From Phormidium tenue FACHB-886 (GTDB taxonomy: Bacteria; Cyanobacteriota; Cyanobacteriia; Elainellales; Elainellaceae), in the NCBI RefSeq assembly GCF_014764505.1, contig NZ_JACXWX010000003.1:1-64000 (forward strand): a DNA stretch of 64,000 nt. The letters are read 5' to 3'. Numbering within the stretch: the stretch's first letter is position 1; every line of letters begins with the position of its first letter. Positions 29,580 through 32,997 of the stretch are shown one piece after another. Under the pieces are notes generated by a model, which made no database searches, was not told the DNA's origin, and was given only the letters and a program-made list of their open reading frames with translations. A program made the translations under genes and the position numbers.

Positions 29580-30002
29580 GTGTCGCTGCTACCTGTGCAA
29601 CACTCAAAGATCCAAAAAATCGATCCCACTGCTGAATACCCCTGCCCCTGCCGCCGTCGGGGGCGCTTAACACCGATTGTCTTAACGGAGGCGTTTGGCT
29701 GCGACCGGTGCCAGCAGATCTTCGTAGTACAAGATAATGGCTATGTCCTGGAACAGCTTTCGACAAACTACCCCTACAAACGAGCCTGGCGCTGGACAGG
29801 GCACCAGTGGAATATTGCCCATGCGAGTTTGGGGCGCGGCTATTTTCCACTGACGCTGTTAATTATTTTTGGGCTAATTTTTCTGTTAGTGCTGATGGCG
29901 TTGCAGTCACCCTTGAGTTCCAGTGTCACCATCCGAGTGATTGCGGCCCTGGTTGTGTCGATGATGATAGTCTTGATCCTATGGCTAACCTTTAGGCATT
30001 AA
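29580..30002 (+). CDS. Small zinc-ribbon membrane protein, unknown function
   Basis: A 140-residue protein starting with GTG at 29580. The N-terminal third has a four-cysteine ribbon: CPC (residues 22-24) and CDRC (41-44), with basic residues between (RRRGRL), a likely zinc-binding knuckle. Two membrane helices follow (YFPLTLLIIFGLIFLLVLMAL and VTIRVIAALVVSMMIVLILWL). I do not recognise a named family. It ends 29 bp before the ProA-like gene on the same strand, so the two may be cotranscribed. An alternative start is not obvious. Confidence 0.65.
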   Translation: MSLLPVQHSKIQKIDPTAEYPCPCRRRGRLTPIVLTEAFGCDRCQQIFVVQDNGYVLEQLSTNYPYKRAWRWTGHQWNIAHASLGRGYFPLTLLIIFGLIFLLVLMALQSPLSSSVTIRVIAALVVSMMIVLILWLTFRH

Positions 30003-30031: not shown

Positions 30032-31288
30032 TTGAACGCTTCATCTGTTCCCACGACTGCATACCAGGCTTACCAAGCCTCCTTAGATCTGGCAGCGATG
30101 CGTGGCACCGATCGCACTCGTGCCTTGTTGCTTATGGCAGAGGCGCTGAAAGATCGCCAGGATGACATTCTAGAGGCAAACACGCTGGATCTGGAAACCA
30201 GCCGCGAGATGGCAATTCCAGATTTGGTCTTAGACTGGCTAAAGCTGACCCCTGAACGCCTACAAACGGCAGGACAAATCCTACAGCGGTTGGCAGAATT
30301 ATCTGATCCGATCCAGCAGGTCTTGAACATTCCATCCCTGCAGGTGGATCAGTGCCAAACTTACTACCAGCTCACCCCGCTGGGCGTGATCGCCTTTATC
30401 TCAGAAGCATTTCCTGAACTGGGAGCAATTGCTGCTGGGCTGTGTATCCGCACCTCTAACAGCCTGATCCTGCGAGGCGGGGTTGAGGCAAGCCACACCA
30501 ACCAAGTGCTTGCCGAAACGTTGAAGCTTGCTATTGAAGATGCCGGATTGCCTAACGACTGTATTCAGCTGCTTCAGCCTGACTACGGCGACCAGGTACG
30601 GGAGCTGGTGATGCAAGACCAATTCATTAATTTGGTGATTCCCTACGGGCGACCAAGCCTGGTTCAGCAAGTAGTGCGACAAGCTACAGCTCCAGTCTTG
30701 AAAACAGCCATCGGCAACTGCTACCTTTACTGGTCGCCCTCTGGCAGCTTGGAGATCGCCCGCTGGATGATCCTAGACAGCCATCTCAGCGTTCCCGATC
30801 CGGTGAATGCGATCGAGAAAGTGCTAATTCATCGACACCATTCCGCTTCGTCTCTGATGCTGCTGTGGGCAAGCCTCAGAGACAAGGGTTTTGTGCTGAA
30901 GGGGGATAACATTCTCACGGCAGAATTTCCAGATATTTTTACGGTAGAAGCGACAGAGCTAGAGTGGGATCAAGCCTACCTGAATCGATCGATCGCCTTC
31001 AAAGTTGTAAACGGCTTGGAAGCAGCGATTGCCTGGATCAATCGTCATAGCAGCGGACATGCAGACTGTCTGGCAACAGAGTCCTATCAGGAAAGCCGCC
31101 AGTTCGCCATCGAGATCGGTAGCGCTATGACCTATATCAATGCCTCCCCTCGGTTTTATCGCAACCCAAAGCGGGGCAGCCCGATCGCATTAGGCATGTC
31201 CAACCAGAAGGGGCAACGGCGGGGATTAATTAGCGTAGAAAGCCTGACCACGCTGCGCCACATCATTCAGGGAAATGGCATTGCCTGA
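30032..31288 (+). CDS. ProA-like protein lacking the catalytic cysteine
   Basis: A 418-residue aldehyde-dehydrogenase-fold protein closest to gamma-glutamyl phosphate reductase (ProA), which makes glutamate-5-semialdehyde in proline synthesis. Family blocks are present: LGVIAFISEAFPELGAIAAG, NSLILRGGVEAS, and the C-terminal region around SVESLTTLRHIIQGNG. However, the stretch that should read PGVCNALE reads PDPVNAIE (residues 255-262), so the cysteine is Val258 (codon 30803-30805), and the usual IPRGG is IPYGR. It is therefore unlikely to be a working ProA and may be a paralogue with another role. The start codon is TTG at 30032; ATG at 30098 is an alternative. Confidence 0.8.
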   Translation: MNASSVPTTAYQAYQASLDLAAMRGTDRTRALLLMAEALKDRQDDILEANTLDLETSREMAIPDLVLDWLKLTPERLQTAGQILQRLAELSDPIQQVLNIPSLQVDQCQTYYQLTPLGVIAFISEAFPELGAIAAGLCIRTSNSLILRGGVEASHTNQVLAETLKLAIEDAGLPNDCIQLLQPDYGDQVRELVMQDQFINLVIPYGRPSLVQQVVRQATAPVLKTAIGNCYLYWSPSGSLEIARWMILDSHLSVPDPVNAIEKVLIHRHHSASSLMLLWASLRDKGFVLKGDNILTAEFPDIFTVEATELEWDQAYLNRSIAFKVVNGLEAAIAWINRHSSGHADCLATESYQESRQFAIEIGSAMTYINASPRFYRNPKRGSPIALGMSNQKGQRRGLISVESLTTLRHIIQGNGIA

Positions 31289-31314: not shown

Positions 31315-32997
31315 TTAGGGTTCCTGCTCCGGAAATTCTTCCTGCAGAATCGGCAAGGGTGCGAAGGCAGGACAATAGCCATCAGGTGTCACTTTAAATC
31401 CAAACAGCGGTGAGGCTTGGTTCCAGCAGCGCTGCCCTCGACAGTGGATGCAGTTGCCGCAGCACTCTACCCCCACTGAAGGAATCACCTCTCCTTGGGT
31501 CATCAGCTCCCGCTGGGATATTCCCCGCAGCACTAGATCTTCACCCTGCCAACGCGCCTCAACAATGCCTGTATCCGCAAAGTCCTGCCAGCGTGGATCG
31601 GCGGTAATGGTATCAGGCAGCGTGATATTTATTGCTGTGCCGTATTGAGTCAGCTCCCCTTCGTACTGGGACTCTGGCGCAGCAGGCTGCAAAAAGGTCT
31701 CGCCGATCGGTAGCTCTACAGGTGTTCCGGCAGAAGGCGTGTGCAGATGGTAACGGTTTTGCAGCTCTTCCAGCCCGGTGAGATCGCCGAGGTAGGCAGG
31801 TGAGCCATGAACAAAAACCACATGCTGTGGACGCAGATTGTGAATCAGCTGGGTGGTGCCGGCTCCATCGGCGTGATCGCCCAGTAGGTAAGTTTCGATC
31901 GATAGCTGACCCGATCGTAGCTGGGCTTGCAGCTGCGGCGAAGCGTCTAGCGTTTGAGCAACTGCTGTTTCTATGGAGCCAGTTCGCCCAGGCTGCTGAG
32001 GCACCAGCACTAGCCAAGGGCTCGACTGCGCTTGGCAGTATTGGCTCAAATCGGCATCTTTGTCGGTTAGTACGATATTAGGCGCCTGTGCCAGCAGCGC
32101 TTGCCTCTGGGCACGATCGGCTAAAGTGGGTAGCTGCCGGACGCGCGGACGAATCCGCTCATCCCAAAATAAAGGCTGATGGCGAGCAAAATTCTGCACC
32201 GTGCTAGGGAAATGAGACAGCATCTCTAGGTAGGCGTCGCAGCCCTGCGCTACATTTCCATCTACCCAGATGTTGATCTCCCGCCCCGTAAAGTGATGGT
32301 GGCTCCGGAGGAGCATCAGCAGCTCTTGCCCCAACCCTAGCGCAGGTGTAGGCAGCAGCACAGACTGCCCATCGGCAATGGCTCGCTGGATTCGATCGGC
32401 AAGCTGGTTTTCCTGCTGCCGCCGGTGCGGAAACCGCGCTGTGCCATAGCTGCCTTCTGCAATCAGCACGTCTGGCTTCAAGCCGCGTAGCTCTTCTAAT
32501 GGCAAGCCATCGACTAAGCGCGAGCTAGACAGCAAGAAATCACCCGTGTAGAAGACCGTGTAAGCCCGCTGCTCGGTTGTATAGGTCAGCAGCAGCGCTG
32601 CTGCCCCTGGCAAGTGCCCCGCCGGAAACAGCTCTGCGGTTAAGCCTTCACGAAATTCCATGGGCGATCGCCAAGGCAACGCCTGACAGATGCCCGAATG
32701 AGCACCTGAGTCCGGCGATTGCCCCAGGGACAAGAGCTGTGTTGTCACCTCGCTGGCGTAAATCGGCAGTTTTGGAAAAGCTTGGCGCAGCGCAAACAAG
32801 CCTCTGGCGTGGTCAGCATGGGCATGGCTGCATAGCACCAAATCAGCCGGAGGAACCGAGTTCTGCTCCGCGATGAGGGGGTGAATACTGCTTAATCCGC
32901 AGTCCAGCATGATCCGATGAGGTCCCATCCGCAGCAGCAGACAAATGCCCTCATCGGCATGACCTACGCCAAACGGCAAGCATTCTAGCTGTTCCAT
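31315..32997 (-). CDS. Beta-CASP metallo-hydrolase with C-terminal Cys cluster
   Basis: A 560-residue metallo-beta-lactamase/beta-CASP protein of the RNase J/CPSF type, probably an RNA-processing nuclease. The zinc motif HAHADH is at residues 58-63; later motifs are FYTGDFLLSSSRL, the acidic LIAEGSYG, and a beta-CASP region ending with HGSPAYLGDL. A long insert follows. The last 60 residues carry a cysteine cluster, CCGNCIHCRGQRCWN followed by YCPAF, seven cysteines in all, which could bind zinc or an iron-sulphur cluster. That tail is not usual in RNase J. It converges on the ProA-like gene 26 bp away. Confidence 0.8.
   Translation of the reverse strand: MEQLECLPFGVGHADEGICLLLRMGPHRIMLDCGLSSIHPLIAEQNSVPPADLVLCSHAHADHARGLFALRQAFPKLPIYASEVTTQLLSLGQSPDSGAHSGICQALPWRSPMEFREGLTAELFPAGHLPGAAALLLTYTTEQRAYTVFYTGDFLLSSSRLVDGLPLEELRGLKPDVLIAEGSYGTARFPHRRQQENQLADRIQRAIADGQSVLLPTPALGLGQELLMLLRSHHHFTGREINIWVDGNVAQGCDAYLEMLSHFPSTVQNFARHQPLFWDERIRPRVRQLPTLADRAQRQALLAQAPNIVLTDKDADLSQYCQAQSSPWLVLVPQQPGRTGSIETAVAQTLDASPQLQAQLRSGQLSIETYLLGDHADGAGTTQLIHNLRPQHVVFVHGSPAYLGDLTGLEELQNRYHLHTPSAGTPVELPIGETFLQPAAPESQYEGELTQYGTAINITLPDTITADPRWQDFADTGIVEARWQGEDLVLRGISQRELMTQGEVIPSVGVECCGNCIHCRGQRCWNQASPLFGFKVTPDGYCPAFAPLPILQEEFPEQEP

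Follow-up and report, generated by a model that had tools for sequence, protein, structure and literature searches.

The genome of Phormidium tenue FACHB-886 encodes, besides a canonical gamma-glutamyl-phosphate reductase (ProA), a full-length ProA paralogue in which the catalytic cysteine is replaced by valine. This Cys-less ProA paralogue (CLP) may descend from the ancestral ProA of cyanobacteria and have been kept as a regulatory, ligand-binding pseudoenzyme at the membrane together with the product of the gene upstream (probability about 0.5). That it has lost the chemistry of ProA is nearly certain, because the established mechanism passes through a Cys-bound acyl intermediate (PMC8963878). 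The features concerned lie in a stretch of 64,000 nucleotides, which is called the window here:

29580-30002, plus strand: ZR, a 140-residue protein with a CPC-x16-CxxC motif (C22, C24, C41, C44) and, at its C-terminus, a pair of predicted membrane helices
30003-30031, plus strand: gap of 29 nucleotides between the stop codon of ZR and the start codon of CLP
30032-31288, plus strand: open reading frame of CLP, TTG start, 418 residues; landmarks are V258 at the place of the catalytic Cys, IPY(205)GR(207), GNCY(231)LYW and SP(373)R(374)F-R(377)
30803-30805, plus strand: codon of Val258, the catalytic-Cys position (computed as 30032 + 3 x 257)

Convergent with CLP, a metallo-beta-lactamase-fold protein (PF12706, PF00753 and PF07521) is encoded at 31315-32997 on the minus strand, and an extra cysteine cluster (CCGNCIHCRGQRCW) is recognized at its C-terminus.

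When CLP was aligned by BLASTP with the other ProA of the same genome (contig C1, L011:4984-6291; 30% identical to CLP), which keeps its Cys, VPDPV(258)NAIE fell on YPSACNAIE and IPYGR fell on IPRGS. An earlier sequence-only reading had claimed that Val258 takes the place of the catalytic Cys and that IPRGG has become IPYGR, and both claims hold; the second, Cys-containing proA whose existence it had left as a question is present. In a phmmer alignment counted by hand, the Cys of this canonical ProA corresponds to residue 598 of Drosophila P5CS, which is named as the catalytic Cys (PMC8963878, PMC11061531). The aldehyde dehydrogenase (ALDH) superfamily is recognized in CLP by Pfam (PF00171, 46.7 bits against a cut-off of 23), and its best solved relative is the ProA of Thermotoga maritima (E-value = 6 × 10-60). 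The best Foldseek matches were 1o20 (E-value = 5 × 10-24, TM 0.56), 8zoo, 8zon and 8zok, a result that rests on a structure model with a pLDDT of only 67.6 and a poor region at residues 364-418. As to ProA itself, CLP passes the NCBIfam equivalog model NF001221 (306.3 bits, cut-off 289) and fails TIGR00407 (262.5 bits, cut-off 317.45), and a second CLP (L308) is below both cut-offs, with 272.6 and 236.7 bits, respectively. By its residues, CLP has V258 for the catalytic Cys of the P-x-x-C-N motif, keeps the substrate-binding Arg (R374) with R377 in place of the Asp, and has Y205 and Y231 for the Arg of IPRG and the His of GxCH. The features of an ALDH pseudoenzyme that can be seen in its sequence are an ALDH-type fold, an absent nucleophile and a constrained site.

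The substitution is conserved, a point that the sequence-only reading had also left to be checked. A total of 226 distinct sequences were sorted by best match into 162 CLPs (56 of them in named records, 106 in unnamed ones), 24 Gloeobacter-type ProAs and 40 canonical ProAs (the taxon names of the coded genomes, namely Gloeobacter-, Synechocystis- and S. elongatus-like, are those that we presume). Cys at position 258 was found in none of the 162 CLPs, which have 150 V, 3 I, 2 A, 1 P and six gaps (the six gapped ones have a motif without Cys), and in all 64 of the non-CLP ProAs. The exchanges are not confined to this position. In a comparison of 48 CLPs with 43 active-type ProAs, which omits six near-duplicate CLP rows, the f5 forms and most of the f36 forms, a column was called invariant at 94% and fixed at 90%; of the 64 columns invariant in the active ProAs, CLP keeps 36, varies in 22 and has six fixed exchanges (R69W, R205Y, H231Y, C258V, T373P and D377R). 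The varying columns include R127 (mostly F or L in CLP) and the Arg of position 186 (about 90% G), and R207 exists in all 48 CLPs and in none of the 43 active ProAs. Because 42 of the 64 ProA-invariant columns are conserved in CLP, as compared with 82 of the remaining 350 (odds ratio 6.2 in Fisher's test, p = 10-10), the former active site is still strongly constrained; the ex-catalytic motif itself ranks among the most conserved segments of CLP.

In Drosophila P5CS, binding of the substrate has been reported for R712 and D715 (PMC11061531, citing Zhong et al.). By hand count on the alignment, D715 is position 377, where Arg has a frequency of 1.00 in the 48 CLPs, and R712 is R374, which is retained. 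For R525 of Drosophila P5CS, a contact with the NADP(H) adenine is reported (PMC8963878). The counterpart of R525 in CLP is not Arg: it is either G186 (about 90% in the 48-CLP alignment) or D184 (by BLASTP, in which a gap makes the place unsure). The loop of this adenine contact is less conserved in ProAs anyway (PMC11061531). Retention of NADPH binding, which had been expected, was unsupported because the R525 equivalent is not Arg.

An active enzyme with a new, Cys-independent chemistry in the remodelled pocket would be consistent with the fixed or nearly fixed Y205, R207, Y231, P373 and R377, with the high conservation of the former catalytic motif, and with Cys230, which is found in 48 of the 48 CLPs. 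However, Cys230 is equally invariant in the active ProAs (43 of 43) and is missing from the fast-evolving CLPs L223, L224, L227 and L230-L233, so it is no general substitute for the nucleophile and was rejected as such, and no known catalytic set could be recognized in CLP. We therefore regard a new chemistry as unlikely. The sequence-only reading had called the protein either a pseudoenzyme or an enzyme of changed chemistry: its ground is firmer now, with the loss of the nucleophile fixed in every CLP and a Cys-containing ProA in the same genome, and the sequences are compatible with either of the two.

CLP is widespread in the class, and most of the sampled oxygenic cyanobacteria carry a Cys-less second ProA. 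In 53 of 60 relatives, the Cys-less paralogue is present at full length, and all 53, when read, have V or I at position 258; two have a fragment (G010 and G035), G039 has a degenerate form, and G028, G036, G048 and G051 have none. In a draw of 98 genomes from the phylum, 37 of the 40 of the same class match at 577 bits at least. None of the 58 outside the class exceeds 310 bits, an absence that is partly score-based: the 16 that were read all have the Cys, and the scores alone are compatible with a divergent Cys-less form in the other 42. Of 145 genomes of the class, 97 are of CLP type by score (at least 345 bits, Gloeobacter-like families excluded, and not all of them read for the Cys), and in one family 118 of 118 genomes have CLP-type scores. 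A scan of the named genomes by pattern matched 541 stretches, 525 of which encode relatives; the best 80 of the 525 are all cyanobacterial as far as could be judged. Among 33 pattern matches in viral contigs, none encodes a viral relative of CLP.

Weaker forms exist at the margins of this distribution. The seven f36 genomes match at 276-300 bits, and the three that were read have A, P or A at position 258; the eight f5 genomes and G279 show a second weak match, without Cys in the five of the eight and in G279 that were read. At L230-L233 (f5) and L225 (G279), the ProA-type gene is linked to ZR, its catalytic motif is replaced by other sequence, and it also has IPCGR or VCGRS; this is perhaps a second, independent kind of degeneration. 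One ProA and no match in the CLP range were found in all 13 f2 and all eight f17 genomes, and also in G093 and G310, and the ProAs of G036, G051, G273 and G304 (f2/f17) read as canonical. The fast, degenerate forms of f36 and f5 and the missing matches in f2 and f17 could point to a decaying relic that is retained by chance, but the near full length, the residues fixed over the sampled class and the 118 of 118 scores of one family make such a relic very improbable.

Two single-contig genomes, G105 and G238, show the Cys-less paralogue only (that is, two of 118 genomes of one family are without a canonical ProA), and proB is present with CLP, the canonical ProA not being found, in G105, G017 and G033; for G105, with 5000 N in the 15001 bases of the fetched stretch, this absence is unsafe, and the assembly of G033 is incomplete. 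Substitution of CLP for a missing canonical ProA in G105 and G238 was considered and set aside, as synteny with folB was uninformative and the G105 stretch is rich in N: folB has no canonical proA nearby in G161 or G238, and it is at a contig end in G017. TIGR00300, which we take to be an alternative proline route, is present in G017, G238, G000, G161 and G048 but not in G105, G033 and G046. The genomes G105, G017 and G033 (CLP with proB) and G238 (CLP only), together with the NF001221 score, are what speaks for the annotated function, by which CLP would still be a gamma-glutamyl-phosphate reductase. Against this stand the loss of the nucleophile and of the reported substrate-binding Asp, the failed TIGR00407 cut-off and the small number of genomes without a canonical ProA, with the gaps in G105 and G033 as described, so that we give the annotated function hardly any credence.

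Of the 160 distinct CLP loci with room for it (two more have no room), 152 have the gene for ZR directly upstream of CLP and in the same orientation, which means that the pairing is not a local coincidence, and the gap has a median of 22 nucleotides over 159 loci (some genomes counted twice). The sequence-only reading had suggested that CLP might share an operon with the gene of a zinc-ribbon membrane protein 29 bp upstream; the pairing is borne out, and one transcript for both genes is what we infer from gene order and spacing. The pair is not obligatory, since eight of the 160 CLPs are without ZR (including those of the S. elongatus-like G258 and the Synechocystis-like G129 and G145) and seven of the eight f17 genomes have ZR with no match in the CLP range. 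In 33 ZR rows, C22, C24, C41 and C44 are conserved at 90% or more, and a YPYK-x-x-W-x-W-x-G stretch is also conserved. The helices occupy residues 89-109 and 114-139 in a structure model (mean pLDDT 70.8), and in our reading they probably span the membrane. We could not find any Pfam or NCBIfam match over cut-off for the ZR of the window, any significant structural match, or any ZR-type protein in the 58 genomes outside the class. A weaker second ZR-type protein (48.7 bits) is encoded elsewhere in the genome of FACHB-886, outside the window at G000:C112:89866-90204, and similar ones exist in many genomes of the class.

Two further expectations about the pair were not supported. A mirror-tree comparison over 32 genomes gave no coupling of CLP and ZR evolution beyond that explained by canonical ProA (partial r 0.21 for pairs and -0.035 per genome); in this set, which includes degenerate forms, CLP has about 2.5 times the mean pairwise distance of canonical ProA. 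Regulation of the ZR promoter by NtcA was rejected, as GTAN8TAC occurs in nine of 129 upstream regions and 10.4 are expected. Nor was any further partner of CLP adopted, because a ribH-like cluster (lumazine-synthase-like, named from sequence) is near ZR-CLP in only 37 of 103 loci (flanks of L041-L063 and L081-L160) and other neighbour clusters in at most 49 of them. In the S. elongatus-like genomes G046 and G258 (L302 and L303), which are ZR-less, a ribH-like gene directly precedes CLP.

In two f17 genomes, ZR is found 34-37 nucleotides upstream of the canonical, Cys-containing ProA, and in G051 and G262 (f17) it has no adjoining ProA. A hydantoinase/5-oxoprolinase-like gene (named from sequence) is divergent upstream of ZR at the f17 loci L219, L220, L221 and L222, with a further frame between the two genes at L221; gamma-glutamyl phosphate gives rise to 5-oxoproline as a side product. 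The nine Gloeobacter-like genomes (f14, f47 and f48) have one ProA each, all with the Cys, IPRGG and GNCH, and in eight of them this ProA is directly downstream of ZR (in G283, the two genes are on different contigs). The position of ZR upstream of a Cys-containing ProA in both the two f17 and the Gloeobacter-like genomes hints that ZR may work with ProA-type proteins in general.

A tree of 63 rows was constructed, unrooted, with eight of the nine Gloeobacter-like ProAs and three long CLP end branches, and with the fastest f36 forms omitted. One 100/99 branch set CLP and the degenerate f5 forms apart from the rest, and a second 100/99 branch separated CLP, the f5 forms and the eight Gloeobacter-like ProAs from canonical cyanobacterial ProA. 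Because the sole ProA of the Gloeobacter-like genomes keeps the Cys, sits in the ZR pair and groups with CLP, CLP seems to be the original ProA of the cyanobacteria, which was demoted in genomes that have a second one. The simplest reading of these sequences is that ZR and ProA are the older pair, that a second ProA joined the lineage, and that the old ProA then lost its Cys; the pair is probably older than that loss. Both the age of the pair and the exchange of residues besides the Cys go beyond what the sequence-only reading had noticed.

A doubtful but serious alternative is that CLP acts as an inactive subunit of the proline pathway, which would join ProB and/or canonical ProA and tune how gamma-glutamyl phosphate, which is labile, is channelled; ZR would bring this complex to the membrane. 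The pairing of ZR with a Cys-containing ProA in eight of nine Gloeobacter-like and in two f17 genomes would agree with this, as would proB, present in 10 of the 10 genomes tested, and the correlation of CLP and canonical distances after ZR is taken into account (partial r 0.63, which may be shared phylogeny). However, the 13 f2 and eight f17 genomes all have one ProA and no CLP-range match, and neither proB nor canonical proA was noticed next to CLP at the loci that were read.

Bearing on the regulatory pseudoenzyme that we prefer are the reported phenotypes of a presumed orthologue in Synechocystis PCC 6803. In the Synechocystis-like genome G129, CLP is divergent from a cph1-type gene and has on its other side a gene for an AI-2E-type transporter, followed by rpsD; the canonical ProA of this genome is followed by urtE, and carB precedes it, two small frames away. 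The CLP copy of G145 has the same neighbours, namely cph1 (1155 bits to 2vea) and the transporter, and in G071, which has the genus code of G129 and G145, CLP and canonical ProA both have other neighbours. Cph1 is presumably slr0473. In PCC 6803, urtE is sll0374, and proA is found in the legend of a map of the urea genes (PMC6737895). Since urtE adjoins canonical ProA and cph1 adjoins CLP in G129, sll0373 should be the canonical ProA and sll0461 the CLP of PCC 6803, as judged from the synteny in G129 and G145 and from the gene names. Disruption of sll0461 raises PHB (PMC3859321 and PMC3766872, both citing earlier work). By RT-PCR, sll0461 and sll0373 are both reported to be up under nitrogen starvation (PMC12386471), and sll0461 is down under high copper (PMC4182526) and up under butanol (PMC3726282).

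At the level of sequence, then, the loss of the nucleophile is fixed, other invariant residues are exchanged, the remodelled site is constrained, pairing with a membrane-protein gene is frequent, and CLP groups with a Cys-containing, ZR-paired ProA. A regulatory pseudoenzyme fits best because of the constraint on the site, the pairing with ZR and the PHB phenotype of sll0461. Once a second, Cys-containing ProA was present, the old ProA would have lost its gamma-glutamyl-phosphate reductase chemistry and stayed as a pseudoenzyme; CLP would still fold like ProA and would be held at the membrane by ZR or together with it. The remodelled pocket would bind a small ligand, either a glutamate-family metabolite or a nucleotide, and CLP with its ligand would regulate the flow of carbon/nitrogen or of reductant. 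More tentatively, a second ProA could have taken the place of the native one throughout the oxygenic cyanobacteria, and the native one, its active site rebuilt, could have become a membrane-tethered metabolite sensor that divides fixed carbon and reductant between nitrogen assimilation and PHB storage, with the enzyme form persisting in Gloeobacter-like lineages.

In the literature searched, from which subscription journals were largely missing, we could not find any description of a Cys-less ProA paralogue, or any biochemical or genetic test of a CLP as such, in the parts of the papers that were available. One study, by whose count 27 cyanobacteria have a single ProA each, states that the catalytic Cys is conserved in the sequences that it collected (PMC11061531). 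Many cyanobacterial genomes have a gene that can be named proA by an NCBI model and should, by its sequence, be unfit for the chemistry of ProA. At least the PHB phenotype of sll0461 and the RT-PCR of 'two proA genes' (PMC12386471) may have been taken as matters of proline biosynthesis although they concern another protein. In short, the gene carries an enzyme label but probably encodes something different, a regulator being the likeliest choice. It merits attention for how widely it occurs in the class, for the Cys-bearing form that survives and for the new reading of an annotated gene. Since the Gloeobacter-like form keeps the Cys, the step from enzyme to pseudoenzyme can be tested residue by residue.

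Compared with known systems, CLP is like ProA (TIGR00407/NF001221; 1o20, 8zok and 4ghk) in length, in fold, in 36 of the 64 invariant columns and in R374, and is different from it in that the catalytic Cys is absent, R205, H231, T373, D377 and R127 are replaced, and a membrane-protein gene mostly lies upstream. The GPR domain of P5CS (7f5t and 2h5g; TIGR01092) can be aligned over nearly the whole of CLP, with C598 at V258, whereas CLP has no fused kinase domain and lacks the nucleophile, D715 and the adenine-contacting Arg R525. Pseudoenzymes with the ALDH fold are known, such as ALDH16A1 and omega-crystallin. They share with CLP an ALDH-type fold without the nucleophile; unlike them, CLP belongs to another subfamily, is bacterial, is mostly paired with a membrane protein, and has a likely ancestor form that is extant. 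That form, the ZR-ProA of the Gloeobacter-like genomes (L064/L210 and L211-L218), has the same upstream gene in eight of nine cases and lies, with its eight members in the tree, on the same side as CLP; in contrast to CLP, it keeps the Cys, IPRGG and GNCH and is an ordinary ProA by its sequence.
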